The notes under the pieces are model-generated. The model saw only the letters and a list, made by a program, of their open reading frames with translations. It searched no databases and was not told where the DNA came from. Of a stretch of DNA of 64,000 bases, positions 9,366 through 54,722 are shown piece by piece; position 1 is the first letter of the stretch; each line of letters opens with the position of its first letter. The stretch comes from Minwuia sp. (GTDB taxonomy: Bacteria; Pseudomonadota; Alphaproteobacteria; Minwuiales; Minwuiaceae), in NCBI GenBank assembly GCA_029210175.1, contig JARGPL010000032.1, forward strand, positions 1-64,000, given 5' to 3'. A program made the position numbers and the translations under genes.

Positions 9366-9455
9366 GCCCGGCATCTCCCCTGAATCTCTCCCACCGTGAA
9401 GCGTAAGGGATCAGGGGAGGCACGGCAAAGACCAGCAGCGGGCAAGGGCCCTGCG

Positions 9456-10191: not shown

Positions 10192-10194
10192 GCT

Positions 10195-10208
10195 TCTAGA
10201 TATATAGA
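10195..10208. promoter_or_regulatory. Candidate ArsR operator between arsR and the amine oxidase gene
   Basis: TCTAGATATATAGA contains TCTA/TAGA inverted arms around GATATA and stands out as an AT-rich island. It lies 4 nt before the arsR-like start codon, so a bound repressor would block initiation. ArsR-family operators are typically AT-rich inverted repeats of this kind. Assignment rests on position and composition only. Confidence 0.4.
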
Positions 10209-10274
10209 TACAATTGAGCAGGGCAAGGGTTTTCTGTATGGCTGGGACACATTCTTGAACCGAAGGAAATTCGG

Positions 10275-11621
10275 ATGATCAGTCGCAGAGGCGTGCTGGA
10301 GATCCTGGCAGCGGGCAGCGTGCTGGGCGCGTCCGGCCCGGTGTTCGCGCAACCGGCGCCGGGGGATCGATCAGTGCTGGTGATCGGTGCGGGTGTTGCG
10401 GGGCTGGCCGCGGCGCAGACGCTGCGACGCAACGGTTTCGATGTCGTGGTGCTGGAGGCATCGGACCGCATCGGTGGCCGCCTCTGGACGGACCGCGACC
10501 TGGGAGCGCCGTTCGAAGTGGGTGCAGGCTGGATACACGGGCCGGAGGGTAATCCCATGTCCGTGCTCGCCGCCGCCGTGGGGGCGCATACTTTCGTCAC
10601 CGATGATGAGAGCCTGGAGGTCATGTACGCTGATGGCGAGACTGTGCCTGACGGGACCATCGTGGATGCGGAAGAGCAACTGGAGAACATCTACGAACGG
10701 GTTGATGAGGAAGCGGGCCGGGGCGAAAGCCTGAGCGCTGCACTTGACCGTCTGGATTCCGGGTTCCTGGATGATGCGGTGCGCCGATGGATGACCTCGG
10801 CCTATACGGAATTCGACAATGGTGCTGCCCTCGATGACCTCTCCGGTCAGTTCTTTGACGAGGACAGCGTGTTCCCCGGGGACGACGTCATTCTGACCGG
10901 TGGCTACGATCAGGTGCTCGCACCTCTGGCGAATGGCGTCGACGTGAGATTCGGGCAGCGGGTGCGGTCGGTGCGGCTGCTGGAGGAAGAAGGCGTGGAG
11001 GTCACCACGGACCAGGGGGCGTTCCGTGCCATGTATGTCATCTGCACCTGCCCGCTTGGTGTCCTGAAGCAGGGCCAGGTGACCTTTGACCCGCCCCTGC
11101 CGGGCAGTCACGCGCGGGCCATGGACCGCATGGGCATGGGCAATGTCACCAAGATTGCCCTGAAGTTCGACGCGCCGTTCTGGCCGGTGGATACGCAGTA
11201 TCTCGGGCTGGTGACAGAACCGCCGGGGCGCTGGAACTACTTCCTCAATTACAGGACGTTCACCGATCAGAACATGCTGGTGGGCCTGTCGGTCGGTGCC
11301 TACCCGCTGGTGGCGGAGGCCATGTCGGATGCCGAGATGGTGGCGGACGCGATGCTGGTGCTGCGCGACGCCTATGGCGATGCGGTGCCGGACCCGATCG
11401 CGTTTCGCACCACGCGCTGGTCAGAGAATCCCAACAGTTACGGTGCCTATTCCTATAGTCGGGCTGGCAGTTCACCCGACGACTGGGAGACCCTGGCCGA
11501 ACCGGTCGATGGCACCCTGCTGTTTGCCGGGGAACACACTTGCTGGGACAACAAGGGCACCACGCACGGCGCCTTGTTGAGCGGCAGGGCAGCGGCGCGC
11601 TGGATCATCGACGACGCGTGA
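10275..11621 (+). CDS. Flavin monoamine oxidase, exported (Tat-like signal)
   Basis: 448 residues. The N-terminus has SRRGVLEILAAGSVLG, a twin-arginine-like signal ending near VFAQ, so the enzyme probably acts in the periplasm. The FAD site follows: VLVIGAGVAGLAAAQTLRR and EASDRIGGRLWT. The C-terminal FAD segment is LLFAGEHTCWDNKGTTHGA. The arrangement matches polyamine/monoamine oxidases of the amino-oxidase family (spermine oxidase-like), which oxidise amines to aldehydes or imines with peroxide release. AAGGAAA precedes ATG 10275. It is divergent from arsR and could share its control region, but nothing else links the two. Confidence 0.85.
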   Translation: MISRRGVLEILAAGSVLGASGPVFAQPAPGDRSVLVIGAGVAGLAAAQTLRRNGFDVVVLEASDRIGGRLWTDRDLGAPFEVGAGWIHGPEGNPMSVLAAAVGAHTFVTDDESLEVMYADGETVPDGTIVDAEEQLENIYERVDEEAGRGESLSAALDRLDSGFLDDAVRRWMTSAYTEFDNGAALDDLSGQFFDEDSVFPGDDVILTGGYDQVLAPLANGVDVRFGQRVRSVRLLEEEGVEVTTDQGAFRAMYVICTCPLGVLKQGQVTFDPPLPGSHARAMDRMGMGNVTKIALKFDAPFWPVDTQYLGLVTEPPGRWNYFLNYRTFTDQNMLVGLSVGAYPLVAEAMSDAEMVADAMLVLRDAYGDAVPDPIAFRTTRWSENPNSYGAYSYSRAGSSPDDWETLAEPVDGTLLFAGEHTCWDNKGTTHGALLSGRAAARWIIDDA

Positions 11622-11654
11622 TCGTCGCAAGCCAGCGCGCGCCGGACTTCAGCC

Positions 11655-12695
11655 CTACAGCAGTTCCTTCGCCAGGATTTCCAGCGCTTCCTTTGAGGTC
11701 GCGCGGCAGAGCATGGCGTTCACTTTCCGCTCCTTGCCGGCCTGCTTCCAGGCGGCGAGCTGTTCGCGGATGTGGCCTGCCGGGCCGACAAGGGCGACCT
11801 TGTCCACCAGTGCGTCCGGAACCATGGAGAAAGCCTCTGCGCGGCGGCCGGCCAGGAACGCGTCCTGAATGGCGCTTGCCGCGTCGCCATACCCCAGACG
11901 GGTGGCATATTCGGCGTAGTAGTTCTTCTTCTTCGCGCCCATGCCACCGATGTAGAAACCCATGTTTTCCTTGACCGGACGGCGGGCCTTTTCGATGTCG
12001 TCGTCCACCACGACGGTGACGAAGGGGCAGACGTCGAAGTTGTCCAGGCTGCGCGCACCGTCGGTCTTGGCAAAGCCCTGATCGATGTAGGTGCCGATGG
12101 CCCCATAGTTCGACGGATCCATGTAGACCGGAATGACGCCATCGCAGACCTCTGCCGCGGTGCGGATGCCGCCCGGAGAAATGGATGCGGAATAGATCTT
12201 CAGCGGATGTTCCGGGCGCAGGATGGTCTTCAGCGGCTTGCCGAGACCCGTTGCATCCGGTCCGGCATAGGGCAGCTGATAGTGCTTGCCCTCATGCGTC
12301 ACGGGTTCCTCGCGCGCGATGATCTTGCGCATGATCGAAACATATTCACGGATCAGCTCCAGCGGCTGACCATAGGGCACACCGTGCCAGCCTTCGATCA
12401 CCTGCGGGCCGGACGGGCCAAGGCCCAGGATGAAACGACCGCCGGACAGGGCTTGCAGGGTCAGGGACGTGGTGCTCATCAACGCGGGGGATCGGGCCTG
12501 CATCTGGCAGATGCCGGTGCCGACCTTGATCTTGGACGTCTGGCTGAGAATCCACGATGCGGAGGAAATCGCGTCCGCGCCCCAGGCCTCGGAGGTCCAG
12601 ACGGAATTGTAACCCATGGCCTCCGCCGCCTTGATCATCTCCATATCGATCCGGTAATGGGCATCGCCCGTCCCGAGAATCAGTCCGACTTCCAT
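11655..12695 (-). CDS. LLM-class flavin-dependent oxidoreductase
   Basis: 346 residues with the luciferase-like TIM barrel. It begins MEVGLILGTGDAHYRIDM and has AEAMGYNSVWTSEAWGADA, KIKVGTGICQMQARSPALM and LSGGRFILGLGPSGPQV, typical of F420- or FMN-dependent LLM enzymes. GGGAGGA stands 7 nt before ATG 12695, which decides the start. Reactions range from monooxygenation to hydride transfer, so the substrate is unknown. The adjacent divergent genes encode a two-subunit CoA-transferase, which hints at a shared catabolic pathway. Confidence 0.85.
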   Translation of the reverse strand: MEVGLILGTGDAHYRIDMEMIKAAEAMGYNSVWTSEAWGADAISSASWILSQTSKIKVGTGICQMQARSPALMSTTSLTLQALSGGRFILGLGPSGPQVIEGWHGVPYGQPLELIREYVSIMRKIIAREEPVTHEGKHYQLPYAGPDATGLGKPLKTILRPEHPLKIYSASISPGGIRTAAEVCDGVIPVYMDPSNYGAIGTYIDQGFAKTDGARSLDNFDVCPFVTVVVDDDIEKARRPVKENMGFYIGGMGAKKKNYYAEYATRLGYGDAASAIQDAFLAGRRAEAFSMVPDALVDKVALVGPAGHIREQLAAWKQAGKERKVNAMLCRATSKEALEILAKELL

Positions 12696-12781
12696 TGCGT
12701 GTATCCTCCCGCATCGCTGAATTTGCTGTGGCGAGACTAGGTCAGCCATGCCTTGAACCGCAAGCAGCGCGGTTGTTCTAC

Positions 12782-12837
12782 ACCCGTCCCGCTTTGCTGG
12801 GCCCATGCCCGGATGCGGGTTTCGACACGGGACGGGT
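12782..12837. repeat. 10-bp perfect inverted repeat upstream of the CoA-transferase genes
   Basis: ACCCGTCCCG (12782-12791) and CGGGACGGGT (12828-12837) are perfect inverted arms separated by 36 nt of GC-rich sequence. The repeat lies in the divergent intergenic region between the LLM enzyme and the CoA-transferase pair (12696-12974), where I see no other gene. It could be a regulator site or an mRNA structure. GC-rich sequence makes chance occurrence more likely. Confidence 0.3.
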
Positions 12838-12974
12838 CATGGGTCGTGAGACGGCACGCGCGCCGGAGACAGGCTGGATGGCTGATATGCAGAACACATC
12901 CGATGCGATGGTCGGCATTGTTCAGGGGGGCAGGATCCTGCTAGAAATAGCACACAAAACAGGAGGAATGCGCG

Positions 12975-13814
12975 ATGACCGGTCTGGTTCATGATTCTGT
13001 CGACAGTCTTGCGGCTTTGATTCCGGATGGCGCGAAGGTCGCTATTCCGGCGGATTACACCGGCATTGCAATGGGCCTCACGCGGGCCATGATCCGTCGC
13101 GGTGTCCGTGACCTCTATCTGGTCTGCCTGCCGACCTGCGGCCTGCAGGGTGACATGCTGATCGGCGCCGGTGCGGTGAAGACCATCGAGACGTCTGCCG
13201 TGACCCTGGGCGAGTTTGGTGGTGCGCCGCGTTTCCAGGCGGCTGTTGGCGACGGCAGCCTGACCATCAAGGATGCAACCTGTCCGGCCATTCACGCCGG
13301 TATCCAGGCGGGGCAGAAGGGCATTCCCTACATGCCGCTGCGGGGCATGATCGGTTCCGATGTGCTGGCCAGTCGCGATGACTGGAAAGTCATGCAGAAC
13401 CCGTTCAGTGACGGGGAAGATCCGATTGTCCTGCTGCCCGCCATCAAGCCGGATTTCGCGCTGATCCATGCCAAGAAGGCGGACCGGCACGGCAATATCT
13501 ACATCGGTCTCCGCCGTGAAGTCATGGCGCTGGCCGGCGCATCCCGCCAGACGCTGGTGACGGTGGAGGAAATCGTCGACGGCAATCTGCTGCGTGACGA
13601 CGCGACGGCGACCGGTACGCTGCCGGCCCTGTATGTCGGCGGCGTGGCCGAGGCGAAACAGGGCGCCTGGCCGCTGGCTTTCTGGGAGGAATATGCCACG
13701 GATGAGGCGCACATGACGTCCTACGTCGCCGCCGCCCGCTCGCCGGAGGGGTTCAAGGCCTATCTTGATGAATTCGTCACCGGTGGTGGCGCGCGCGCCG
13801 CAGCAGCGGAGTGA
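12975..13814 (+). CDS. CoA-transferase family I, subunit A
   Basis: 279 residues. It has the CoA-transferase alpha-subunit pattern: SLAALIPDGAKVAIPAD near the start, then IGAGAVKTIETSAVTLGEFG and MPLRGMIGSDVLA. The best resemblance is to glutaconate CoA-transferase-type alpha subunits and to IpdA, the steroid-ring hydrolase subunit of actinobacteria. AGGAGGA precedes ATG 12975. Subunit B begins 4 nt after its stop, so the two form a complex. Whether it transfers CoA or hydrolyses a cyclic CoA ester cannot be decided here. Confidence 0.85.
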   Translation: MTGLVHDSVDSLAALIPDGAKVAIPADYTGIAMGLTRAMIRRGVRDLYLVCLPTCGLQGDMLIGAGAVKTIETSAVTLGEFGGAPRFQAAVGDGSLTIKDATCPAIHAGIQAGQKGIPYMPLRGMIGSDVLASRDDWKVMQNPFSDGEDPIVLLPAIKPDFALIHAKKADRHGNIYIGLRREVMALAGASRQTLVTVEEIVDGNLLRDDATATGTLPALYVGGVAEAKQGAWPLAFWEEYATDEAHMTSYVAAARSPEGFKAYLDEFVTGGGARAAAAE

Positions 13815-13818
13815 TCCG

Positions 13819-14580
13819 GTGAGTGATTTGTCCGCCCCTGACGACCTCCGTACCGAAGAACTGCTGATCACGCTCATCGCCAGGCTGCTGGAAGGCTGTC
13901 GTCTGGTGTCATGTGGTGCTTCTTCCCCCATTCCCGGCGGTGGCTGCCTGCTCGCCCGGCAGCAGTCCGGTGGTGCCATGCAGGTCAACGTACTGGGCAG
14001 CCGGGTGAACAACCTGATGACCAATGGCGGCGTTGAACTGTTCGACTGGGCCGCGCAGGGACGCCTGGATGCGTTCTTCCTGGGCGGCGGCCAGATCGAC
14101 GGCCAGGCCAACATCAATCTGGTGGGGGTCGGCGATTATCCGCAGGCCAAGATCCGCTGGCCCGGCTCCTTCGGGTCTGCCTATCTGTACTATCTGGTGC
14201 CGCGCGTGATCCTGTTCCGTGAGGAACACACGCGCCGGGTATTTGTCGAGAAGGTGGATTTCGTGTCCACGCCGGGCACCAGTGATCCCGAGGTCTATCG
14301 CACCGGTGGTCCCCACGCGCTGGTTTCACCGCTCTGCCAGATGGGGTTCGACAAGGACCGGAAGAAATTCCATCTGGTGTCTGTCCATCCGGGTCACACG
14401 GTGGAGGAAGTGCTGGACAATACCGGTTTCGAGATCGACGTGCCGGACCAGGTGCCCGAGACCGTGCTGCCCGACCGCGCCACCCTGGACATCATCCGCC
14501 AGCAGATCTCCCTGGAGATCGCGGAGACCTATCCCCGTTTCGCGGCAAAGGTGTTCCCGGACGCGATGAACGCCGCCTGA
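13819..14580 (+). CDS. CoA-transferase family I, subunit B
   Basis: 253 residues, starting at GTG 13819 (VSDLSAPDDLRTEELL) with GGAG overlapping the end of subunit A. The motif VSCGASSPIPGGGCLLARQ near residue 37 and the glycine-rich LGSRVNNLMTNGGVELFDW fit the beta subunits of glutaconate-type CoA-transferases and IpdB. An ATG at 13765 in the same frame lies inside subunit A and is unlikely to be used. It forms the heteromeric partner of the preceding gene. The strand then ends in a 417-bp repeat-rich stretch. Confidence 0.85.
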   Translation: MSDLSAPDDLRTEELLITLIARLLEGCRLVSCGASSPIPGGGCLLARQQSGGAMQVNVLGSRVNNLMTNGGVELFDWAAQGRLDAFFLGGGQIDGQANINLVGVGDYPQAKIRWPGSFGSAYLYYLVPRVILFREEHTRRVFVEKVDFVSTPGTSDPEVYRTGGPHALVSPLCQMGFDKDRKKFHLVSVHPGHTVEEVLDNTGFEIDVPDQVPETVLPDRATLDIIRQQISLEIAETYPRFAAKVFPDAMNAA

Positions 14581-14583
14581 AGC

Positions 14584-14736
14584 TCACGGCGCACGCGGAC
14601 TTGATCCGCGTGTCCAGCCTTTCAGAGGTTGAGGCGTCCCCAGGTCTCGCCCGGGCACGCCGTTCCTGGCAGGCGGCGGCGCTTCTCATCGCAGCAAGGG
14701 AACGCTGTCGTCCCTGCCTTGAGCCGGGGGCCACGC
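14584..14736. repeat. Intergenic direct repeat, copy 1 (about 153 bp)
   Basis: This block recurs 244 bp downstream with about half a dozen substitutions. It starts TCACGGCGCACGCGGAC and ends GAGCCGGGGGCCACGC. Within it CACGCGGA (14592-14599) and TCCGCGTG (14605-14612) form a perfect hairpin. It has no credible coding frame and sits in the longest gene-free stretch of the window (14581-14997). It looks like a dispersed genomic repeat that has been duplicated locally. Confidence 0.8.
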
Positions 14737-14769
14737 TTTCTCACGCTCACGTGCGCGGCAAAGCGTGGA

Positions 14770-14798
14770 TGCCGGATCGGCGCTCCGCTTGTCCGGCA
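14770..14798. repeat. Palindromic element between the two direct repeats
   Basis: TGCCGGA (14770-14776) and TCCGGCA (14792-14798) are inverted arms around a 15-nt GC-rich loop. They lie within the context GCGTGGATGCC...CATGACA, a type of short palindrome scattered between genes in many alphaproteobacterial genomes. It lies in the 91-bp spacer between the 153-bp copies and may be a nucleic-acid structure or a terminator for convergent genes. Confidence 0.55.
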
Positions 14799-14827
14799 TG
14801 ACAGTTCGGGATTGGCTTGCCCTTGTT

Positions 14828-14980
14828 TCACGGCGCACGCGGACTTGATCGGCGTGTCCAGCCTTTCAGAGGTTTAGGCGTCCCCAGGTCTCGCCTGGGC
14901 ACGCCGTCCGTGGCAGGCGGCGGCGCTTCTCATCGCAGCAAGCGAACGCTGTCGTCCCTGCCTTGAGCCGGGGGCCACGC
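14828..14980. repeat. Intergenic direct repeat, copy 2 (about 153 bp)
   Basis: Second copy of the block at 14584-14736. The match is almost continuous. Differences include one base in the hairpin arm (TCGGCGTG instead of TCCGCGTG), which weakens the fold seen in copy 1. No target-site duplications or transposase are associated with it. The block ends just before the stop codon of the convergent carboxyltransferase gene. Confidence 0.8.
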
Positions 14981-14997
14981 CTTTCCTGTTCGGCCAG

Positions 14998-16626
14998 TTA
15001 CGGGCGCATGGGATAGAGCCTGGGGCCGACCAGCCCTTTCAGGCGCTCCTGACTGACATCCAGCCAGCGGCAGAGCATTGGACGGGTTTCGCGCGGGTCG
15101 ATCAGTTCGTGGAACGCAAACGACTCGGCGCGGGGGAAGGGGGACTGGCGCGCGGCCAGCATGTCTTCCAGTTCCTGCCTGCGGGCATCCGGATCCGGGT
15201 GGGCGGCGATCTCGCGACCGAACGCAACAGCCACGCCGCCTTCGACAGGCAAGGGCCCGAACTCTGCCGACGGCCAGGCCATGACGTGACACTTGCTGGC
15301 ATAATGTGCCGCTGCGGCGACACCGAAGTTCTTCTTGATGATCACGGATGCCCAGGGCACCTGACAGTCGGCGGCAGCCAGAACCGCCGCAGTGCCGGGA
15401 CGGATTGTCCCCTCCGCCTCTGCCGCCGGGCCGATCATGAAGCCGGGTTCATCCACCAGTGCGATGATCGGCAGGTGGAAGGTCTCGCAGAGTTCGATGA
15501 AACGTTTCACCTTCCGCGCACCGGCAGCCGACATCGCCCCGGCATAATAGCGGCAGTCGTTGCTGTAGATGCCGACAGGCTGACCGTTCATCCGCGCCAG
15601 TCCGACGATCTGGCCCGGGCCGTACTGTCTCCCGGTCTCGAAGAAGCTGTCCGTATCCACCACCATGGCGATCAGCTTCCGCATGTCATAGGCCTTGCGC
15701 CGGTCGCGCGGCACGATGCTGGCCAGCCGGTCATCGCAGCGGTCCACCGGGTCCGTGCAGGCAATCGTCGGCGGCAACTGATCGACATTCGGTGGCATGT
15801 AGCTGAGGAACTGCCTGATCTGGCGGAAGGCGTCGTCCTCATCCGCCGCGCCATTGTCGATGGCACCGCTTTTCAGGTGAACCTGTGCGCCACCCAGTTC
15901 TTCCTTGTTGATCTTGTGGCCGAGTGCGCGCTCCACCACCGCAGGGCCGGCGACCAGAACCTGAGCGGTTTCCCGTGTCATGACCGTGAAGTGGGACGCG
16001 ACCAGACGTGCGGCAGGCAAGCCGGCTACCGGGCCGACGGCTGCCGAACAGACCGGAATGGCACCCATGGTGCGGGCCACGGACAGGAACCGGTGCGGGG
16101 AATAGACAGGGTCCCCGACGGGGCCGCTGTTGCCGCCCTTCTTGCCGCCAGCACCTGTCACCGAACCGCCGCCGCCTTCATGCAGACGGATCAGCGGCAC
16201 GCGGTACTGCAATGCCATTTCCTCGGTATAGATCGACTTGCGCAGGCCCGCCGGATTGGGGGAGCCACCGGAAACCGTGAAGTCTTCACCACCGACGACG
16301 CAGGTCTGACCATTCACCTTGCCGAAGCCGAGAATGAAATTCGCCGGGGTCAGGGTCTCGAAGTTGCCGTCGGCATCGGTCTCCGCCGCACCGGCACCCA
16401 TCCCCATCTCGTGAAAGCTGCTGGTGTCGAGCAGCCGGTCGATGCGTTCCCTGAGGGTCAGTCGGCCCTTGCCATGCTGGCGCGCGACAGCTTCCGGCCC
16501 ACCATGAGCCTTTGCCATTTCGCGCCGGAGGTGGATCGCGTCGATCCGCTCCCCCCAATCCGAATTGGCCGGGGGTGCCTTCGGCGCACCTTTCCCGGGT
16601 TTTTCACCCAACGGCTTGTCACTCAC
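14998..16626 (-). CDS. Biotin-dependent acyl-CoA carboxylase, carboxyltransferase (beta) subunit
   Basis: 542 residues covering both crotonase-like halves of the carboxyltransferase family. The N-half has GKGRLTLRERIDRLLD, RLHEGGGGSVTGAGG and MGAIPVCSAAVGPVAGLPAARL. The C-half has YDMRKLIAMVVDTDSFFE, GAMSAAGARKVKRFIELC and IIALVDEPGFMIG. The enzyme moves carboxyl from carboxybiotin to an acyl-CoA such as propionyl- or methylcrotonyl-CoA. It overlaps the upstream acyl-CoA dehydrogenase gene by 4 nt (ATGA), giving coupled translation. No biotin carboxylase or carrier subunit is encoded in the window, so the partner must lie elsewhere. Confidence 0.9.
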   Translation of the reverse strand: MSDKPLGEKPGKGAPKAPPANSDWGERIDAIHLRREMAKAHGGPEAVARQHGKGRLTLRERIDRLLDTSSFHEMGMGAGAAETDADGNFETLTPANFILGFGKVNGQTCVVGGEDFTVSGGSPNPAGLRKSIYTEEMALQYRVPLIRLHEGGGGSVTGAGGKKGGNSGPVGDPVYSPHRFLSVARTMGAIPVCSAAVGPVAGLPAARLVASHFTVMTRETAQVLVAGPAVVERALGHKINKEELGGAQVHLKSGAIDNGAADEDDAFRQIRQFLSYMPPNVDQLPPTIACTDPVDRCDDRLASIVPRDRRKAYDMRKLIAMVVDTDSFFETGRQYGPGQIVGLARMNGQPVGIYSNDCRYYAGAMSAAGARKVKRFIELCETFHLPIIALVDEPGFMIGPAAEAEGTIRPGTAAVLAAADCQVPWASVIIKKNFGVAAAAHYASKCHVMAWPSAEFGPLPVEGGVAVAFGREIAAHPDPDARRQELEDMLAARQSPFPRAESFAFHELIDPRETRPMLCRWLDVSQERLKGLVGPRLYPMRP

Positions 16627-17828
16627 AGGCCGAGGACCAGCTTCGCCATGATGTTGCGCTGCACCTCGGACGCGCCGGCATAGATCGTCGCGGCACGGCT
16701 GTTCAGGTGCTTGGCCATGACACCGACCGAGTGGTCAGGACCAACCGGGATGGCATTGGAAAACGGGGTACGGGTATCAGGCTCGAACGGGTTGGCGTAG
16801 TAGCTGATGGCTTCCACAGCCAGCTCGGCCGTCGCCTGCATGCATTCCGATCCGCGCAGCTTCATGATCGACGACGCCGCGCCGGGGTTTTCCCCCGTGT
16901 TCAGGGCGCTCATCGTCTTCTTCTCGAAGAATTCCAGCGCGACGACCTGCGCTTCGATATCTGCCAGACGGGCGCTGAAGGCCGGATCATTGATCAGGGC
17001 ATCGCCATCACCGGCGGCCTCTTCCGCGGCGATCCGCTTCAGCTTGTCCAGCATGGCATGCAGGCTGGGGCTGTAGGCCGAGCCACCACGCTCGAACTCC
17101 AGCAGGTACTTGGCGACCGTCCAGCCTTCATTCTCCGGGCCGATGCGGTTGGCAACGGGGACACGGACGTCATCGAAGAAGACCTGATTGACCTCATGAT
17201 CACCGGACATGGTCAGGATCGGCTCGACCTTGATGCCGGGCAGGTCCATGGGGAAGACAATGAAGGAAATACCCTGCTGCGGCTTGCCGTCCTTCGATGT
17301 GCGAACCAGGCAGAACATCATGTTTGCGTGGTGGGCGCCCGTGGTCCAGATCTTGGTGCCATTGATCACGTAATCATCGCCATCACGGTCGGCGCGGCAC
17401 TGCAGGCTGGCGAGGTCGGAGCCGGAACCGGGTTCGGAATAGCCCTGACACCAGACGTGTTCACCGGCGTAGATCCTGGGCAGATAGGCGTCCTTCTGCT
17501 CCGGGGTGCCGAACTTCATGATCACGGGGCCAACCATGCGGAGACCCATGGCGAACAGGCGCGGCGCGCTGGCGCGCTGGCATTCGGAATCGAAGATGTA
17601 GCGCTGCATCGGGCTCCAGCCCGGTCCGCCATGCTCTTCCGGCCAGAACGGCGCGATCCAGCCCTTCTTCGACAGGGCCTTGTACCAGTCCATGGAACCT
17701 TCGAAGTCGGAAACCACGCCCGCGGTCAGGCGACCAGCTTCCCTGGCGTTCTCAGTCATCGATGTTTCAAGGAAGTCCCGTACCTCGGCACGAAACGCTT
17801 CTTCTTCGGCTGTCAAAGACAGGTCCAT
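16623..17828 (-). CDS. Acyl-CoA dehydrogenase
   Basis: 401 residues with the standard helical N-domain, beta middle domain and C-terminal helical domain. QGYSEPGSGSDLASLQC and YVINGTKIWTTGAHHANMM are the FAD and substrate contact segments. The C-terminal part has GASEVQRNIMAKLVLGL, a typical end. It catalyses alpha-beta dehydrogenation of an acyl-CoA and passes electrons to ETF. GGGGAGGA precedes ATG 17828. Its stop overlaps the carboxyltransferase start, suggesting dehydrogenation and carboxylation in one pathway, as in leucine or branched-chain breakdown. Specificity is not clear. Confidence 0.92.
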   Translation of the reverse strand: MDLSLTAEEEAFRAEVRDFLETSMTENAREAGRLTAGVVSDFEGSMDWYKALSKKGWIAPFWPEEHGGPGWSPMQRYIFDSECQRASAPRLFAMGLRMVGPVIMKFGTPEQKDAYLPRIYAGEHVWCQGYSEPGSGSDLASLQCRADRDGDDYVINGTKIWTTGAHHANMMFCLVRTSKDGKPQQGISFIVFPMDLPGIKVEPILTMSGDHEVNQVFFDDVRVPVANRIGPENEGWTVAKYLLEFERGGSAYSPSLHAMLDKLKRIAAEEAAGDGDALINDPAFSARLADIEAQVVALEFFEKKTMSALNTGENPGAASSIMKLRGSECMQATAELAVEAISYYANPFEPDTRTPFSNAIPVGPDHSVGVMAKHLNSRAATIYAGASEVQRNIMAKLVLGL

Positions 17829-17955
17829 GGTCGTCCTCCCCGACGCTTTACACTGCTTGCAAGCTTTTTAGCCGATCCGGCGCGATGGCAGAAGGCTTGA
17901 GATGCGGGGGAGGGGTTGCAGGAGGCGACGGATGCGCCGGATGCGCCGCCGCATG

Positions 17956-30689: not shown

Positions 30690-31511
30690 TCAGTTGCCGC
30701 CGGTCACTTCCAGCATCTGGCCGCTGACGTAATCGGACAGGGGCAGGCAAAGCATGACCACGGCACCCGCTGCCTCTGATGGCTTGCCGCCACGGCCCAT
30801 GGGGATCATGCGGTTGGCCATTTCGATGTTCTGCACCGGCACACCGATGAGGACCTTGTTGCCTTCGACCTCGATCATCTTCTTCTCGTCGGTGGCTTCG
30901 GTCAGGCGGGTCTCGATCAGGCCGAAGGCGACGGCATTGACGTTGACCTGATAGCGACCCCATTCCCGGGCCAGGGCCTTGGTCAGGCCGACGACGCCGG
31001 CCTTGCCTGCGGCATAGTTGGTCTGGCCTGCATTGCCCCGCGTGCCGGACACGGACGAGATGTTGACGACCTTGCGGATCACCGCGCCGCCCTGCTTCTC
31101 GACCTCTTCCTTCGACTTCACGCGGATGAATTCGGATGCGGCCTTCAGGATCTGCCACGGTGCCTTCAGGTGAACATCGATCATGGCATCGAACTGATCG
31201 TCGCTCATCTTCTGGATCACCGCGTCCCAGGTATAGCCCGCGTTGTTGACGATGATGTGCAGATTGCCAAAGCTCTCGATGGCGGTACTGACGAAACGGT
31301 CCGCGAAACCGGCTTCGGTGACGCTGCCGGCACAGGCAACGGCCTTGCCGCCCTTTGCCTTGATCTCCGCCACGACCTCGTCCGCCGGACCGGCATCCAG
31401 GTCATTGACCACCACAGACGCACCGAAGCCCGCAAGCTGCAGCGCGACTTCGCGCCCGATGCCCCTGCCAGAGCCGGTCACGATGGCCACTTTTCCGTCG
31501 AGCATTCCCAT
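30690..31511 (-). CDS. SDR oxidoreductase (FabG-like), possible independent product
   Basis: From ATG 31511 the frame encodes a complete 273-residue short-chain dehydrogenase: VTGSGRGIGREVALQL (cofactor site), LHIIVNNAGYTW, catalytic Ser in VVNISSVSG and NYAAGKAG (Tyr, Lys). It ends SGQMLEVTGGN, the normal SDR C-terminus. AGGAGGA lies 7 nt upstream of the ATG, as strong as any ribosome site in the window, although the upstream frame reads straight through it. Probably a 3-hydroxyacyl-CoA dehydrogenase or 3-oxoacyl reductase. Confidence 0.65.
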   Translation of the reverse strand: MGMLDGKVAIVTGSGRGIGREVALQLAGFGASVVVNDLDAGPADEVVAEIKAKGGKAVACAGSVTEAGFADRFVSTAIESFGNLHIIVNNAGYTWDAVIQKMSDDQFDAMIDVHLKAPWQILKAASEFIRVKSKEEVEKQGGAVIRKVVNISSVSGTRGNAGQTNYAAGKAGVVGLTKALAREWGRYQVNVNAVAFGLIETRLTEATDEKKMIEVEGNKVLIGVPVQNIEMANRMIPMGRGGKPSEAAGAVVMLCLPLSDYVSGQMLEVTGGN

Positions 31512-32936
31512 CAGTCTTTCCTCCTGTTCATGATCGAATTTCATGGCTGTTGTGTAGCCGGAGTAGCCAGGCTGGTCGATTGCCACCTGGCGGATGACGC
31601 TTTCGCGCAGATGCGCTGCAAGGCCGGGCAGGTCCAGAGGGATGGAACCATCGCGCAACCCGTCGACCAGGCCTTGCAGCAGGTCCTGATACGTCCCCGT
31701 CCGACCCAGCAGGTCCTGAAGTCCGGCATGGCTGCGGCGTTGATGTTCCGGACCCTGTGCTGTCTCCCGCAGGACGATATCAAGGGAATTGGCCGCGACC
31801 CGGGCCAGAAAACTGGTACGGCCCTCGGTCTCGTGCATGACATCCTGGCGCAGGAAGTCCCGCACGCTTTCGGTCAGTTCCGACAGGCGTGGCATGTTCA
31901 GATCTGTCGCCGCCGTGTCCCCGATGGGCGTCCCCGGCGGTCCCGGGATGATCAGGTTGACGCAGTCGATCTGGCATTCCGATGAACGTCGGGCAATGCC
32001 GGGGCGCTCCACGGTCCTGTCCGGGCCGTTGCGCCAGCGTTCCGCCATGCGCAGGCAGCCAATGGCCCACCAGAAGGATCCGAAAACCTCCCAGAAATGA
32101 ACGTCGGCGCGGTTCACCGTCGTGCCGGACACGGATTCATACCCGGCGAACAGGTCGTCGTAGGTCCCGAACCCGCCCACGGGCAGCTCACTGACACCAA
32201 ACCGCCAGGAATTGGTGCACATCCAGCCGAGGTCGCGCATCGGGTCTCCCAGGCAGGCCACTTCCCAGTCCAGCACCGCAACGATGCCTTCGTCGGGGCG
32301 TATCATCAGATTGCCATTGCGGAAGTCGTTGTGGACCAGCGCCACCCGGTCACTTGCTGGCAGGTTGGCCAGCAGCCAGCGGGCAGTGTAATCGATCATC
32401 GGCTGAGGCGTGCCGAAGCCCTGATAGTCTGTCCAGAGTTCCCGAATGTACGAATCGGGCGTCCATTGCTGCAGCCGCTCTGCAAGGACGGGACTGGCAT
32501 GAACGTCGATGGCGTGGATGCGGGCCAGTATCTCGCCGCACTGTCGGGCGAGCCTGGGTCGGGTACTCGCGAAGGTATCGGCGCGGGCAATGCGTGCGCC
32601 CAGCGTCTCCCCCTCCAGCCATTCCATGAAGAAGCCATGGCCCAACCCCTCCGAGCCGTCGAGCACCGCCACGACCTCAGGTTCCGGAACGCCCGCCGCC
32701 CGTGCCAATCGGATCAGCGCGGCTTCGACATCCAGTCCGGGCCCCACCCGGTCGGTGCCCGGTTCTCCGCCGGGTGCGCGTCGAAACGCGAGCAGCCGTT
32801 TGCCCGACCGGGTTTCGATGGCGACCCGGTGGGTTTCCTGGCTGGCCCCGCCGGAGAGCCGGTCGCAGCTGTCGAGGCGGATGAAGCCGTCGATCCTCTC
32901 GCGCAGGAAGGTCTCGACGGCTTTCCCGAGATCCAC
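30690..32936 (-). CDS. Phosphotransferase (ACAD10/APH-like) - DUF6285 - SDR fusion
   Basis: One uninterrupted frame of about 748 residues carries three modules. Residues 1-~325 are an aminoglycoside-phosphotransferase-like kinase with ALVHNDFRNGNLM and AVLDWEVACLGDP, as in ACAD10-type proteins. A DUF6285 domain (~348-475) begins MPRLSELTESVRDFL. The last 273 residues are a FabG-like SDR. GTG 32936 is chosen since GAGGA precedes it and it lies 10 nt after the amidohydrolase stop; GTG 32972 is also possible. I know these modules as separate neighbouring genes, so either they are truly fused, or the SDR is also made alone from ATG 31511, which has its own strong ribosome site. Confidence 0.72.
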   Translation of the reverse strand: MDLGKAVETFLRERIDGFIRLDSCDRLSGGASQETHRVAIETRSGKRLLAFRRAPGGEPGTDRVGPGLDVEAALIRLARAAGVPEPEVVAVLDGSEGLGHGFFMEWLEGETLGARIARADTFASTRPRLARQCGEILARIHAIDVHASPVLAERLQQWTPDSYIRELWTDYQGFGTPQPMIDYTARWLLANLPASDRVALVHNDFRNGNLMIRPDEGIVAVLDWEVACLGDPMRDLGWMCTNSWRFGVSELPVGGFGTYDDLFAGYESVSGTTVNRADVHFWEVFGSFWWAIGCLRMAERWRNGPDRTVERPGIARRSSECQIDCVNLIIPGPPGTPIGDTAATDLNMPRLSELTESVRDFLRQDVMHETEGRTSFLARVAANSLDIVLRETAQGPEHQRRSHAGLQDLLGRTGTYQDLLQGLVDGLRDGSIPLDLPGLAAHLRESVIRQVAIDQPGYSGYTTAMKFDHEQEERLMGMLDGKVAIVTGSGRGIGREVALQLAGFGASVVVNDLDAGPADEVVAEIKAKGGKAVACAGSVTEAGFADRFVSTAIESFGNLHIIVNNAGYTWDAVIQKMSDDQFDAMIDVHLKAPWQILKAASEFIRVKSKEEVEKQGGAVIRKVVNISSVSGTRGNAGQTNYAAGKAGVVGLTKALAREWGRYQVNVNAVAFGLIETRLTEATDEKKMIEVEGNKVLIGVPVQNIEMANRMIPMGRGGKPSEAAGAVVMLCLPLSDYVSGQMLEVTGGN

Positions 32937-32946
32937 GTTCCAGTCC

Positions 32947-34161
32947 TCAGGCCGCGATGGCCTGAACGGCACCGGATACGGTCTGCCCGCCCTTGATCAC
33001 CGCCAGATGCCGTGTCCGGTCAGCGGCGGCATGGATGTCGTCGACCGGGTTGCCGGGAACCAGCAGGAAGTCGGCAACCGCGCCCGCGCGAACCACGCCA
33101 CGGTCGCCCGGCTCAACCAGTTCCGCCGCGTTGGATGTGCCAGCGATCAGCGCATCCAACGGCGGCATGCCAGCCTCCACCATGTAAGCCAGTTCCCAGG
33201 CATTTGCGCCATGCAGGTTGAACGGCGTGCCAGCATCAGTGCCCATGGCGACCCGGCCACCGGCAGCGATATAGCGCTTGAAGGCGTCCAGATGCACTTC
33301 ATAGACCCGCTCCGACTTCTCGACCGCCCAAGCCGGAATGCCCTTGTCGCGGTTCAGCAGGATGTTCTTCACGGCGGCCAGCGTGGGCACCAGGAAGACA
33401 CCGCCGTCGATCATCTCGGCGATGCATTCCGCGTCCATGAAGATGCCGTGTTCGATGGAATGGATACCGCCACGCACCGCATTCAGAATGCCTTCGGCAC
33501 CCTGTGCGTGGCTGGCCGTGCGCTTGTTGAAGCGACGGGCCTCGGAAATGCCCGCGGCCATTTCCTCTGCGGTGTAATGGGCGTCCTCGGGGTTCACGCC
33601 CGGGGTCATGACGCCGCCGGTTGCCATGATCTTGATGACGTCGACGCCCTTGTGGACGTTGCTGCGAACGGACTTGATGACTTCGTCGACTCCGTCGGCG
33701 ACAAGGCCCCAGCGGTTACCATGGCCACCGGTCATGCAGATCATCCGACCCGAAGCGCGCATCACGGGGCCGGGAAAGCGCCCGGCGTTCAGGGCATCGC
33801 GGACGTCCAGATCGATGTAGTCCTTGCCGCCACAGTCGCGCACCGCAACGATGCCGCCTTCCAGCGTGCGGCGGGCGTTTTCAAGGGCGCGGATGCCGAT
33901 GCCGGAATGGGTCAGCTTGTCCAGATTCTCGCTGGGGTTGGCCTCGGCACCGTGGCAGATGTGGATATGGCAATCGATCAGGCCGGGCATCAGGGTGGCA
34001 TCGCTCGTGTCCACCTTTGCACCGGCAAAGCCGTCGAATTCACCCGCCGGGGCCACCTTGCTGATCAGGCCGTCTTCCACCAGCACAGCCTGGCCTTCGA
34101 CCGGGGCGTTGATGCCGTCGAATACCAGCCCGCCCGCAAACAGCGTTGCGTTGTTCGTCAT
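32947..34161 (-). CDS. Metal-dependent amidohydrolase (Xaa-Pro dipeptidase/imidazolonepropionase-like)
   Basis: 404 residues with the amidohydrolase TIM barrel. Metal ligands are visible: HxH in MPGLIDCHIHICHG, the bridging Lys in GVDVIKIMATGG, His in RTASHAQGAEG and SIEHGIF, and Asp in AMGTDAGTP. Such enzymes hydrolyse amide or cyclic amide bonds; several relatives are peptidases for dipeptides with a C-terminal Pro or Arg. The start at 34161 (MTNNATLFAGG) follows GAGGACTTGAGA; the frame is open 27 codons further without support. It lies between the GST and the phosphotransferase fusion on one strand. Confidence 0.85.
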   Translation of the reverse strand: MTNNATLFAGGLVFDGINAPVEGQAVLVEDGLISKVAPAGEFDGFAGAKVDTSDATLMPGLIDCHIHICHGAEANPSENLDKLTHSGIGIRALENARRTLEGGIVAVRDCGGKDYIDLDVRDALNAGRFPGPVMRASGRMICMTGGHGNRWGLVADGVDEVIKSVRSNVHKGVDVIKIMATGGVMTPGVNPEDAHYTAEEMAAGISEARRFNKRTASHAQGAEGILNAVRGGIHSIEHGIFMDAECIAEMIDGGVFLVPTLAAVKNILLNRDKGIPAWAVEKSERVYEVHLDAFKRYIAAGGRVAMGTDAGTPFNLHGANAWELAYMVEAGMPPLDALIAGTSNAAELVEPGDRGVVRAGAVADFLLVPGNPVDDIHAAADRTRHLAVIKGGQTVSGAVQAIAA

Positions 34162-34204
34162 GTTCTCAAGTCCTCGAGTTCTGCAGGCAATCGGTGCCTG
34201 GCTG

Positions 34205-34891
34205 TCAGTCGTAGCCGGGGGCGGAACGCGCGACACCGCCATAGGAATCCAGAATGCGGTTCAGCCAGTCGTTCAGGCTGTCATCGGCCTCCAGCAAGCG
34301 GAACGGCGACGTCGCCCGCGCCCAGAGGAAGGGACCGGCGCACATGTGATCGGCAAAGCCCGGCGAACTGCCGGCAACCCACTGCTGATGCTGCAGCGTG
34401 ACCCGCAATGGCGTCAGCGCCTGGCGGAATGCCTTCACGCCCTTGTCGCGGCCCGACTGCACTTCTTCAAGCGTCCGCCCGAAGCGCTTTTCGCGACTCT
34501 CGCGGAAATAGGGCTGATCCACGGGATCGAGATGGTCATAGACATCCTTCAGGATCAGCGACGCGACACCGACGGTCATCACGGCCTCTGACCACCAGCG
34601 GATGAAATTCACCTCTCCCTTGCCATTCGGGAACAGGGTCGGGCGGTCGGGGTAGGTTTCTTCCAGATATTCGGCAATGGCCCATGAATCGGTGACCATC
34701 TTCTCGCCGTCCAGGATGGTCGGGACCTTCTGCGCGCCCAGGGATTCGATGGCCTCGCGATCCGTGAATTTCCAGGGCACCGTTTCCACGTCCAGATCCT
34801 TGTGGGCCAGCGCCAGGCGCGTGCGCCAGCAGAAGGGGCTGAAACGGCGTTCTGGGTCGGCACCGCACAGGTCAAACATCCGGATGGTCAT
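34205..34891 (-). CDS. Glutathione S-transferase family protein (LigE-like)
   Basis: 228 residues. The thioredoxin-like N-domain has FSPFCWRTRLALAHKDLD and KVPTILDGEKMVTDSWAIAEYLEE with the glutathione-binding VP and DS pair; a helical C-domain follows. The SPFCWRTR start resembles the beta-etherase LigE group rather than classical alpha or theta GSTs. It may conjugate or cleave an ether-linked or epoxide substrate. GGGAGAGAG precedes ATG 34891. The gene begins 17 nt after the NAD-glutamate dehydrogenase and is likely expressed with it. Confidence 0.85.
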   Translation of the reverse strand: MTIRMFDLCGADPERRFSPFCWRTRLALAHKDLDVETVPWKFTDREAIESLGAQKVPTILDGEKMVTDSWAIAEYLEETYPDRPTLFPNGKGEVNFIRWWSEAVMTVGVASLILKDVYDHLDPVDQPYFRESREKRFGRTLEEVQSGRDKGVKAFRQALTPLRVTLQHQQWVAGSSPGFADHMCAGPFLWARATSPFRLLEADDSLNDWLNRILDSYGGVARSAPGYD

Positions 34892-51423: not shown

Positions 51424-51479
51424 GCTTGCGGTCGCTTCGACGCGCCGTCGAAGGAATTTCCAGAGCCGGGGCCGCACCG

Positions 51480-52187
51480 ATGACAGATGTATCACCTGCT
51501 TCCTTGCCTGACGCACAGGCTCCGACCGTGCGGCTGATGGATTGCCCAAGCTGGATCTATCTGCTGCGGGAGTTCGAGGCGCTCTACCGCTTCGGGTCCG
51601 CCGGGGGCAGCAGCTCGATCCGCAGTCACCGCAAGCGTGTGCGCGACAACCTCTCTGCCGTGATTGCCACCAACCCGGCGATCGTTGCGCGGGAACCGAC
51701 CACCAAGCCGGTGGTGGCGCATCTGCCGCGCGCCCTGGACCTGGGGGAGCGTGCGGCGATGCAGGGCATGGCGAGGGCGCTGCGGGAGGTGCGCAACGAT
51801 CTCCACTGGGAATATGGCTACGACCGCATGCCGAAGGCACTCAGCCGGAAGTACGCCTATTGCGATATCCTCGGGCCGAACGGGCCTGTCCACGCGGACA
51901 GGCTGGTGCTTGGTTTCGTGCTTTTCGCCCCGGGGACAACCTATCCCCAGCACAGCCATCAGGAGATCGAGGAGAGCTACATCTCCATTGCCGGAGCCTG
52001 GTCGGAGAACAATGCCGCCGTATATGCACCCGGATCCCTGATCCTCAACCGCTCGGGCGATGAGCACCGCATCACCACCGGTGATCTGGAACCCTGCCTG
52101 CTGGCCTACGCCTGGACGGGGCCGGGGGAAAGGCTGCGCGCACCCCAGATGAAGCTCTCTCCGACACGGAAACCTCGGTCAGTCTGA
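51480..52187 (+). CDS. dddL: DMSP lyase, cupin type (DddL-like)
   Basis: 235 residues. The C-terminal cupin has the metal-site pattern TYPQHSHQEIEESYISIAG (His158, His160, Glu164 or 165, Tyr167) and LILNRSGDEHRITTGD (His196). The flanking ILGPNGPVHADRLVLGFVLF and PCLLAYAWTG, and an N-terminal YLLREFEALYRFGSAGGS, match my memory of DddL proteins, which cleave dimethylsulfoniopropionate to dimethyl sulfide and acrylate. Other DMSP lyases (DddQ, DddW) share only the cupin core. The start at 51480 has a G-rich site upstream. No acrylate gene is adjacent. Confidence 0.78.
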   Translation: MTDVSPASLPDAQAPTVRLMDCPSWIYLLREFEALYRFGSAGGSSSIRSHRKRVRDNLSAVIATNPAIVAREPTTKPVVAHLPRALDLGERAAMQGMARALREVRNDLHWEYGYDRMPKALSRKYAYCDILGPNGPVHADRLVLGFVLFAPGTTYPQHSHQEIEESYISIAGAWSENNAAVYAPGSLILNRSGDEHRITTGDLEPCLLAYAWTGPGERLRAPQMKLSPTRKPRSV

Positions 52188-52240
52188 CCGATACCCGATC
52201 CGGACTTGTCGGGCCTGATCTGAAAGGACCGGGGGTGATC

Positions 52241-52276
52241 AAAAAAAGGGGAGCGCCGGAACCGGCACTCCCCTTT
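52241..52276 (-). terminator. Rho-independent terminator of the cytochrome c gene
   Basis: Read on the minus strand, GGGGAGTGCCGG pairs with CCGGCGCTCCCC (52248-52273, one G-U) around a 2-nt loop, followed by TTTTTTT (52247-52241). It begins 30 nt after the cytochrome stop codon. An A-rich opposite side makes it usable from both directions, so it can also stop readthrough from the DMSP lyase gene. Confidence 0.9.
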
Positions 52277-52306
52277 CTGCAATTCGCATCAGGCAGATGG
52301 TGCGAC

Positions 52307-52678
52307 TTACATGGTTTCCTGCTTCAGATAGGCGAGCAGGTTGTCGATGTCGGCCTGCTTCTTGAGGCCGGGGAACGCCATCTTGTTCTTCGGAATGTAT
52401 CCGCGCGGATCCTTCATGTAGGCGGTGATGGTCTCGTCGTTCCAGGTGATACCGGAACCCTTCATCGCGCTGGAGTAGCGGAAACCTTCCACGGTGCCGG
52501 CCTCGCGGTCGAAGATGCCATGCAGGCTGGGCCCGACCTTGTTCTTGCCGGGTTCGAGGGCATGACAGATCTTGCACTTCTTGTAGACCTTGGCACCGGC
52601 AGTGGCATCGCCTTCTGCCTGTGCGGCACCCATGCCGAGGGTGAGTGCAACCGCGGTCGCGACGATCAGGTTCTTCAT
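52307..52678 (-). CDS. Periplasmic class I cytochrome c (c2/c552-like)
   Basis: 123 residues. A signal peptide (MKNLIVATAVALTLGMGAAQ, cut near AQA) sends it to the periplasm. Heme attachment is CKICH; the Met ligand lies in PKNKMAFPGLKK, and GKNKVGPSLHGIFDREAG is the usual loop. Class I cytochromes c carry electrons between the bc1 complex and oxidase or dehydrogenases. Start at 52678 is set by the signal peptide. It is divergent from the ABC-transporter operon and ends in a clear terminator. Confidence 0.93.
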   Translation of the reverse strand: MKNLIVATAVALTLGMGAAQAEGDATAGAKVYKKCKICHALEPGKNKVGPSLHGIFDREAGTVEGFRYSSAMKGSGITWNDETITAYMKDPRGYIPKNKMAFPGLKKQADIDNLLAYLKQETM

Positions 52679-52884
52679 GACAACCCTTCCACAATGGACA
52701 ACTGGTTTGGAGCAACTCAGATAAGTGGCTGGCGGGCGACTTGCCACCGGCCAAACGCCGCACCGTTGTCGCAGCCAGAGCCGCGTGTTGTCGTCTTTTC
52801 TGGTTCGAGCCTGCTTGACGCAGGTGCCAGTGGGCCTGAGAGGCCGGGGGCAATTCAATCCCGTCCCCCGATTGGACAAAGACG

Positions 52885-52918
52885 TTGACGGTTGTTCCGG
52901 CGCATAGTCACTATGCGC
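52885..52918 (+). promoter_or_regulatory. Promoter-like box with 19-bp perfect palindrome before the ABC transporter operon
   Basis: TTGACG (52885-52890) resembles a -35 box. The palindrome GCGCATAGT-C-ACTATGCGC (52900-52918) has exact 9-bp arms around one base and covers the region where the -10 would be (a 17-bp spacer leads to TCACTA). It lies 57 nt before the binding-protein start codon. This is the layout expected of a repressor operator, for example of a GntR- or LacI-type dimer. No regulator gene is adjacent. Confidence 0.6.
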
Positions 52919-52975
52919 GGGAAATGGCGCGACAAGCGCCTGAACACGACTGGGAAACATAGCGGGAGACTATTC

Positions 52976-54562
52976 ATGAATATCCGCAACACGCTGCTCG
53001 CGGGTGTAGCCGCGTTCGCGCTTGCTGCCGGTGCTGCCCAGGCAAAGGAACTGACCTTTGCCTTCCAGGGTGATGCCAACTCCATGGACCCCTACAACCT
53101 GAACGAAACGTTCACGCTGGGGTATCTGGCCAACATCTATGAAGGTCTGATCCGTCGTGGTCCGAACCTGGAGATCGAGCCTGCGCTGGCCGAGAGCTGG
53201 GAGATCATGGAACCGACGCGCTGGCGCTTCAATCTGCGCAAGGACGTGAAGTTCCATGGCGGCGAGCCCTTCACGGCTGATGACGTGCTGTTCTCGGCAG
53301 ATCGCGTGCGCGGCGACGGCTCGGATCTGAAGACCCGTCTGGCGGGCGTGACCGAGATCATCAAGGTCGATGATCATACGGTCGACTTCGTGACCGAAGC
53401 GGCGAACCCGATCCTGCATTTCGAGTGGGCTACCTGGGCGATCATGTCCAAGACCTGGGCGGAAAAGAATAGTGCGGTGTCCGCGCAGTCGGCGACTGGC
53501 GATCAGGAAAACTTCGCCACCCGCAACGCCAATGGCACCGGCCCGTTCATGCTGATGAGCCGTGAAGCGGATGTGCAGACGGTCGCTGTCCCGAACCCGA
53601 ACTGGTGGGACAATGCCAACAAGGAACACAATCTGACCAAGGTCACGCTGAAGCCGATCGGCTCTGACGCGACCCGTGTGGCGGCGCTGCTGTCCGGTCA
53701 GGTGGACATGGCCTACCCGATTCCGGTGCAGGACATGAACCGCGTCGACAGCAACGCCGGCACGACGATGCTGGTGGGGCCGGAACTGCGGACCATCTTC
53801 CTCGGCATGGATCAGCATCGCGATGAACTGCTGTATTCCAACGTCAAGGGCAAGAACCCGTTCAAGGACCGCAAGGTTCGCGAAGCGATGTATCGCGCCA
53901 TTGATGTGGAAGCCATCAAGAAGAAGGTCATGCGTGGCCTGTCAGAGCCGAGCGCGCTGATGGTTGCACCGGGGATCAACGGTTCCGATCCGGCATTCAA
54001 GCGCCTGGAACTGGATGTTGACCAGGCCAAGAAGCTGCTGGCCGATGCCGGCTACCCGAATGGCTTCGAAGTCGGCATGGACTGCCCGAACGATCGCTAT
54101 GTGAACGATGAAGCGATCTGTCAGGCCGTGGTCTCCATGCTTGCCAAGATCGGCATCAAGGTGAACCTGCTGGCACAGCCGAAGGCGCTGTACTTCAAGA
54201 AGATTCTGGCGCCGAGCCTGGATACCTCCTTCTACCTGCTGGGCTGGACCCCGGGATCCTTCGACAGCTGGAACCCGATGTTCAACCTGCATGGCTGCTA
54301 CGACGCGGAAAGCGGCAATGGCAAGTTCAACCTGGGGCGCTATTGCAACCCGGATTTTGACGCCCTGACCGCCAAGGTCCTGTCGGAAACCGATTCCGTG
54401 AAGCGCAACGCCATGATCCGCGATGCCTGGGTCATCAGCACCCGTGACATCGCCTACATCCCGCTGCATCAGCAGGCTCTGGCCTGGGGTGCCCGGGACG
54501 GCGTGAACCTGAAGCAGCGTGCGGACAACCAGTTCGCATGGCGTCACGTGACGATGGACTGA
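52976..54562 (+). CDS. ABC transporter substrate-binding protein, peptide family 5 (DppA-like)
   Basis: 528 residues. Signal peptide MNIRNTLLAGVAAFALAAGA with AAQA cleavage, then ELTFAFQGDANSMDPYNLN and FTLGYLANIYEGLIRR, typical of SBP_bac_5 proteins. The motif WRFNLRKDVKFHGGEPFTADDVLFS is the family hallmark. It captures di- or oligopeptides or related ligands in the periplasm for the permease encoded downstream. GGGAG (52964-52968) sets the start. A palindromic operator candidate precedes the gene and a strong hairpin follows it. Confidence 0.93.
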   Translation: MNIRNTLLAGVAAFALAAGAAQAKELTFAFQGDANSMDPYNLNETFTLGYLANIYEGLIRRGPNLEIEPALAESWEIMEPTRWRFNLRKDVKFHGGEPFTADDVLFSADRVRGDGSDLKTRLAGVTEIIKVDDHTVDFVTEAANPILHFEWATWAIMSKTWAEKNSAVSAQSATGDQENFATRNANGTGPFMLMSREADVQTVAVPNPNWWDNANKEHNLTKVTLKPIGSDATRVAALLSGQVDMAYPIPVQDMNRVDSNAGTTMLVGPELRTIFLGMDQHRDELLYSNVKGKNPFKDRKVREAMYRAIDVEAIKKKVMRGLSEPSALMVAPGINGSDPAFKRLELDVDQAKKLLADAGYPNGFEVGMDCPNDRYVNDEAICQAVVSMLAKIGIKVNLLAQPKALYFKKILAPSLDTSFYLLGWTPGSFDSWNPMFNLHGCYDAESGNGKFNLGRYCNPDFDALTAKVLSETDSVKRNAMIRDAWVISTRDIAYIPLHQQALAWGARDGVNLKQRADNQFAWRHVTMD

Positions 54563-54587
54563 CCCAAGCGGTCACGACAACAGAACT

Positions 54588-54620: not shown

Positions 54621-54722
54621 GGGAACCGCCCGATCTCGAGATTCCGTCTGCATTCGATTGAACGTGCGGACGTCCCGACCGGCGCCGGATGCCGGTCTCC
54701 TCTGTATTTTCGGGGAAGCTGA

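Follow-up and report, generated by a model that had tools for sequence, protein, structure and literature searches.

A kinase–DUF6285 gene that continues into a short-chain dehydrogenase in one Minwuia genome: an isolated variation on a widespread two-domain enzyme

Kinases that prepare a hydroxyl group for removal by phosphorylating it have been described in several systems. According to the available text of the reports on the Lva proteins, LvaA together with the 12-kDa protein LvaB phosphorylates 4-hydroxyvaleryl-CoA, and LvaC then eliminates the phosphate (PMC6692424, PMC9399607, PMC11342911). LvaB binds LvaA, and P. putida needs both proteins to grow on levulinic acid (PMC6692424). In ACAD10 and ACAD11 of mouse and human, the same chain holds an APH-type kinase and a second enzyme of the route, an acyl-CoA dehydrogenase domain carrying a catalytic Asp and an HCMR motif; in the accessible part of that account, the combination of the two is special to ACAD10/11, while the Asp is also found in LvaC (PMC12440821). 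In Sterolibacterium denitrificans, a 25-hydroxysteroid kinase (25-HSK) adds to a tertiary steroid hydroxyl a phosphate that is eliminated later, and the available portion of its description mentions no partner domain (PMC8449060).

The window analysed here is the 64,000-nucleotide stretch of a Minwuia sp. genome (GenBank assembly GCA_029210175.1, contig JARGPL010000032.1, positions 1 to 64,000). The source genome has a size of 4.09 Mb in 43 contigs, is 99.99% complete and contains a single DUF6285. A preliminary description of the window had proposed that a phosphotransferase, a DUF6285 and a short-chain dehydrogenase/reductase (SDR) share one stop-free frame, and this was borne out. The minus strand of 30690–32936 carries one open frame of 748 codons followed by TGA, in which three Pfam domains were found: APH (PF01636, residues 26–269, positions 32130–32861; 2.9e-33, 116.1 bits against a cut-off of 23.2), DUF6285 (PF19802, residues 369–458, positions 31563–31832; 8.1e-26, 91 bits against a cut-off of 28.1), and adh_short (PF00106, residues 482–685; 5.5e-45, 153.7 bits, above the curated cut-off). 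The DUF6285 match spans positions 2–91 of the 91 positions of the profile, and its score places the domain in this family. The interval given earlier and the reality of the frame stand; the strand, which had been left unstated, is the minus one, and the plus-strand reading was discarded because it is interrupted by stops. Translation was taken to begin at GTG 32936, because four relatives start with ATG at the aligned position, and not at the alternative in-frame GTG upstream at 32972, which would give 760 codons. The relatives match the kinase–DUF6285 part at 78–86% identity and the SDR at 82–92%; thus, this is not a chance open frame.

The N-terminal part of the protein is a member of the APH phosphotransferase family by its profile and by its catalytic residues. 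H202, D204, N209, D223 and E225, which form the H202-x-D204 and D223-x-E225 motifs, are invariant in all 81 aligned fused proteins. The top Foldseek matches of the kinase were 3dxp, the 25-hydroxysteroid kinase (9ft5/9fsg, the second and fourth matches) and Rv3168, and a sequence search matched ACAD11 chains at 1.7e-11. The fold is shared with 25-HSK; however, the identity in this fold match is 22%. A linker (residues 334–347, positions 31896–31937) leads to the helical DUF6285 domain and is 13–15 residues long in 79 of the 81 rows. The AlphaFold2 model of the two domains, built with the 81-protein alignment, has a pLDDT of 91.7 and a pTM of 0.91, from which we infer that the kinase and DUF6285 pack in a fixed way.

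The preliminary description knew the APH and DUF6285 modules as separate neighbours; by the comparison with other genomes they are more than that, since their fusion is common. Genome contigs were scanned with the aligned fused proteins, and the best 80 of 253 relatives were kept. The kinase and DUF6285 lie in one frame in all 80 of these loci, a set biased by the fused query. In a less biased survey, DUF6285 matches were collected from 289 genomes of the class; 66 of them had a match, and 72 places were listed, of which 57 were read. The omitted places were that of the source genome itself, that of G002 (known to be fused) and 13 weaker matches, and one of the places read gave no DUF6285 frame. 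In each of the 56 readable places, DUF6285 was found in or beside an APH gene, and none was without APH. It is fused to the APH in nine places, and in the other 47 the APH has a frame of its own, on the strand that also encodes DUF6285. The fusion occurs in records labelled as several phyla.

Given the constant company of an APH gene in these 56 places, the fusion in several phyla and the pTM of the two-domain model, DUF6285 is probably a partner subunit of the APH kinase, in the role of LvaB. DUF6285 is named in no paper of the literature searched. As in the case of LvaA and LvaB, an APH-family kinase is accompanied by a small protein, which in the Lva system, by the available text, interacts with the kinase (PMC6692424). 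The stand-alone DUF6285 genes, for example those of 351–396 nt, would encode proteins of about 12 kDa, a size similar to that of LvaB, which was compared by its description. In contrast to the separate LvaA and LvaB, the two form one chain in the source genome. At the same time, no homologue of lvaB turned up in the vicinity of the P. citronellolis lvaA gene (PMC6692424), and LvaB is not named in the available parts of the accounts of the ACAD10/11 kinases or of the Burkholderia LvaA orthologue. As far as these sources extend, a DUF6285-like partner is therefore not needed by all kinases of the APH/LvaA kind.

The acyl-CoA dehydrogenases that accompany these kinases fall into two classes. An acyl-CoA dehydrogenase lies directly upstream of the fused kinase in 51 of the 80 loci, and 53 loci have such an enzyme with at least 500 bits (it is interrupted by N in L150 and lies downstream in L170), whereas in 27 loci none of at least 500 bits is present within the DNA examined. 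An apparent acyl-CoA dehydrogenase–APH–DUF6285 fusion (L150:2165–5236) was rejected, since the scaffold has a stretch of N within this frame. The catalytic position is Glu (TEG) in all 52 readable enzymes of the 53 paired with fused kinases, and HCMR is absent in the 12 of these 53 that were aligned. It is also absent in the G130 enzyme and in G000:C10:84368–85603, the Glu-type orthologue (64% identity) of the partner of fused kinases in the source genome. When the nine fused places of the survey are considered, the nearest acyl-CoA dehydrogenase is of the Glu type in three and of the Asp type in none, with no such enzyme within 4.5 kb in six. For the 47 split places, the nearest one within 4.5 kb is of the Asp/HCMR type in 14, of the Glu type in two and unclassified in four, and 27 have none; two of the 14 Asp/HCMR places are neighbours on a single contig, where the enzyme is encoded by the opposite strand. 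Asp and HCMR were found, for instance, in the enzyme beside the split APH and DUF6285 genes of Thermus thermophilus pTT27, and a second cluster of G003 (L191, G003:C1:3655000–3667000) combines split APH and DUF6285 genes with an Asp/HCMR enzyme. The association of the Asp/HCMR type with split genes is not a strict rule, as the split APH/DUF6285 pair of Sulfitobacter pontiacus has a Glu-type enzyme.

These two classes bear on the supposition that the gene serves an ACAD10-type sequence of phosphorylation, elimination and oxidation. The kinase fold agrees with it (3dxp, the ACAD11 chains and 25-hydroxysteroid kinase), while the Glu-type, HCMR-lacking enzymes of the fused kinases and the SDR, an unusual neighbour of them, do not. 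No acyl-CoA dehydrogenase with Asp and HCMR stands beside the triple-frame gene. Unlike the situation in LvaABC, neither an acyl-CoA dehydrogenase nor a CoA ligase adjoins it at all, and unlike in ACAD10 and ACAD11, the domain joined to the kinase is DUF6285 and, by the run-on, the SDR. The source genome does encode an acyl-CoA dehydrogenase that bears the ACAD10/11 hallmark, HCMR and YDGPSEVH (G000:C39:102855–104015; L189, L198); no APH or DUF6285 ORF was found beside it. Via this enzyme, the kinase could work in a true LvaABC/ACAD10-type pathway of 4-hydroxyacyl-CoA, the more so as the genome has only one DUF6285 and an Asp/HCMR enzyme is nearest in 14 of the 47 split places. However, neither the nine fused places nor the 52 readable partners of fused kinases include an Asp-type enzyme, and the source genome also possesses the Glu-type orthologue. 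This assignment, which would be compatible with the explanation preferred below, is possible rather than probable. An elimination step is putative for the fused clade, because its acyl-CoA dehydrogenase is not of the ACAD10/11 type. The Asp/HCMR and Glu-type partners mark where the ACAD10/11 model may extend and where it may not. We regard the steady pairing of APH with DUF6285 and the two classes of acyl-CoA dehydrogenases as a more useful result than the triple frame itself.

The second joint, between DUF6285 and the SDR, was seen in the source genome only, whereas the first joint is widespread. The kinase–DUF6285 gene is present in four of the six other genomes of the genus (G001, G002, G003 and G005). 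In G001, G002 and G003, the three with a readable junction, the kinase–DUF6285 frame ends with ...GCATCATAG, the stop being TAG (...TCATAG), followed by 11 nt and then by the ATG of the SDR in another frame. In the source genome, the corresponding run-on stretch (31512–31535, minus strand) has several substitutions relative to these three, its distance between the shared AATTC and the ATG of the SDR is different by one base, and it contains no in-frame stop. An out-of-frame TGA preceded by TCA is located at 31528–31530, four columns before the TCATAG of the relatives when counted from the same AATTC. A search for the same triple fusion in related genomes, as suggested in the preliminary description, found none: no SDR lies within an APH–DUF6285 frame in the 80 loci kept from the best of 253 relatives, and G001–G003 have a stop and a separate SDR. 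A conserved three-domain fusion family was thus not seen in these genomes. The triple frame, known from one genome, is a variation on an enzyme whose two-domain form is common, and judging from these comparisons, the stop before its SDR appears to have been lost recently. The joint may be incidental.

The difference of one base also raises the question of a sequence error near 31.53 kb, a missing or extra base, with two genes in reality, kinase–DUF6285 and SDR. The stop at the junction in three relatives, the altered length between AATTC and the SDR ATG, and the TCA-preceded TGA lying out of frame close to the position of the relatives' TCATAG would all agree with such an error. Against it, the junction differs by several substitutions, which is more than a one-letter change. 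As an assembly check, the ORFs of the window were compared with 95 kb of G003, matches of at least 50% identity and at least 120 aa being counted. Among the 29 window ORFs matched, the kinase–DUF6285–SDR ORF alone is split between frames, the match of each of the other 28 staying within one frame; since general frame noise is thus not seen, the source sequence at the junction is probably correct. A purely local error at the junction is conceivable, and taken together we rate the two-gene explanation as unlikely. If the run-on into the SDR is real, it represents a clean natural stop loss that joined two operon genes and kept the downstream ribosome site. In the compared stretch, the window ORFs at 1–17955 and 51424–64000 were unmatched in the 95 kb of G003 at the same thresholds, and synteny with G003 seems limited to window positions 17956–51423.

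The genome closest by the kinase part, G005 (86%), could not serve as a witness for the junction and was dropped, because both of its contigs leave homology there. One of them departs from it after residue 459, and in the other, SDR sequence sets in near residue 511, after a beginning which we take, by eye, to be aspartate-semialdehyde-dehydrogenase-like. These contigs (C486 and C342, loci L010 and L039) come from a metagenome assembly and look chimeric around the kinase/SDR junction. As the junction of this closest relative is unreadable, the run-on could be common to two species and older than it appears.

The SDR module begins at ATG 31511 and comprises residues 476–748 (30693–31511, minus strand). 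It has the classical SDR motifs TGxxxGxG, NNAG and YxxxK, located at residues 487, 564 and 641, respectively, and by these three motifs and its profile it is a classical SDR (PF00106). FabG and the other named SDR models of NCBIfam did not reach their cut-offs among the best 25 of 215 families, the best score there being that of a FabG-like model (207.9 bits against a cut-off of 296). The best sequence match among solved structures was 2et6 (1.8e-63 over its residues 6–218), a (3R)-hydroxyacyl-CoA dehydrogenase whose fusion partners differ from those found here. In the full-length model, the joint at residues 467–478 has a pLDDT below 50 and the start of the SDR is moderately confident. Confident docking of the SDR was not seen in this model, which is weak there, with five SDR rows in the alignment and a pLDDT below 50 for residues 579–748; for the same reasons, the model was set aside as a test of docking.

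An AGGAGGA sequence (31519–31525, minus strand), Shine–Dalgarno-like, stands 7 nt ahead of ATG 31511. With an anti-SD energy of −10.3 kcal/mol, this ATG ranks first of all start-like codons in the frame, and the neighbouring ATG 31505 shares the site with it. Such a score alone is not specific and is no proof of a start, since a value of −10.0 was obtained for a TTG at residue 98, within the kinase domain. Pairing before M348 (31895), where DUF6285 would start, is weak (−5.4), and this residue is M in 66 of the 81 rows; an internal start of DUF6285 was therefore dismissed. Both of the preliminary statements on ribosome sites, a strong one before the SDR and none before DUF6285, agree with these values. 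The suggestion that one gene gives both a fused product and a free SDR is plausible in view of the strong site before the SDR, from which a free SDR may be made beside the run-on product.

A selected trifunctional enzyme that channels hydroxylated acyl-CoA from the kinase to the dehydrogenase can also be imagined. The motifs are intact in all three domains, and the same three domains are encoded by operon neighbours in three relatives. On the other hand, a second example is absent from the 80 loci, the genes of the relatives are separate, the SDR has retained its ribosome site, and the full-length model, weak in the SDR, gives no confident docking. In G004 and G006, relatives of the SDR (82%) occur without an adjoining kinase match, and that of G006 sits among ORFs which, by eye, we assume to encode luciferase-like oxidoreductases. 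The neighbours of other fused kinases were surveyed with custom ORF picking, a residue cap and at most one ORF per side, the four same-genus loci L091–L094, as well as L150, being excluded. The 129 ORFs from 74 loci are varied, and adh_short was found in six of them; the commonest neighbour families have seven members, and amidohydrolase has five (among the best 25 of 112 families). On the count of 6 of 129, in the same best 25 of 112 families, the SDR was rejected as a usual neighbour of the fused kinase gene. All this makes a selected trifunctional enzyme very unlikely.

The explanation that we favour, and consider fairly probable, is that of a hydroxyl kinase with an attached DUF6285 and a loss of the stop into the SDR, which gives a run-on product and a free SDR. 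The kinase would be an APH-fold, ATP-dependent enzyme acting on a hydroxyl group, with DUF6285 as its covalently attached partner, like LvaA with LvaB, presumably doing the job of LvaB. In the source lineage, small changes, an indel among them, would have removed the stop codon that the relatives still have, and the gene may thus run on into the next gene of the operon, the SDR. With no in-frame stop, every ribosome that finishes the kinase continues into the SDR, if the sequence is right. Each kinase chain would then carry an SDR at its end, and the internal ribosome site would add free SDR; the joint is predicted to be flexible, with the two halves working separately.

As for the chemistry, the families of the domains suggest that the kinase may esterify the hydroxyl group of an acyl-CoA-like substrate with phosphate. 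The phosphate could then serve as the leaving group in the reaction of an acyl-CoA-dehydrogenase-type enzyme whose gene lies elsewhere, and the G000:C10 and G000:C39 enzymes are putative candidates for this step. The SDR, whose nearest solved relative is 2et6, would oxidise or reduce a hydroxy- or ketoacyl-CoA. A further and tentative reading, in our opinion less than evenly probable, is that the fused APH–DUF6285 kinases and the Glu-type, HCMR-lacking enzyme constitute a second ATP-dependent route for the removal or by-pass of hydroxyl groups, distinct from that of ACAD10/11 and LvaC. In the Minwuia lineage, the kinase of this route would have turned into a kinase–dehydrogenase chain, with free dehydrogenase made in addition from an internal start. 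As part of the same tentative reading, such a second route on acyl-CoAs would be undescribed; the literature search on kinase/acyl-CoA dehydrogenase fusions surfaced the ACAD10/11 paper alone.

Directly upstream of the kinase, an amidohydrolase gene is located at 32947–34242 (minus strand), and upstream of it a GST-family gene at 34205–34891 (minus strand); the same order is found in three relatives (L092–L094). The amidohydrolase resembles the Xaa-Pro dipeptidase model far below its cut-off (275 against 500 bits), and the GST-family protein resembles the beta-etherase model, likewise far below the cut-off (168.4 against 440 bits). A histidine phosphatase gene follows DUF6285 on Thermus thermophilus pTT27 (L078:7318–7971), and, according to the available text, P. 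citronellolis too has a histidine phosphatase next to its homologue of lvaA (PMC6692424).
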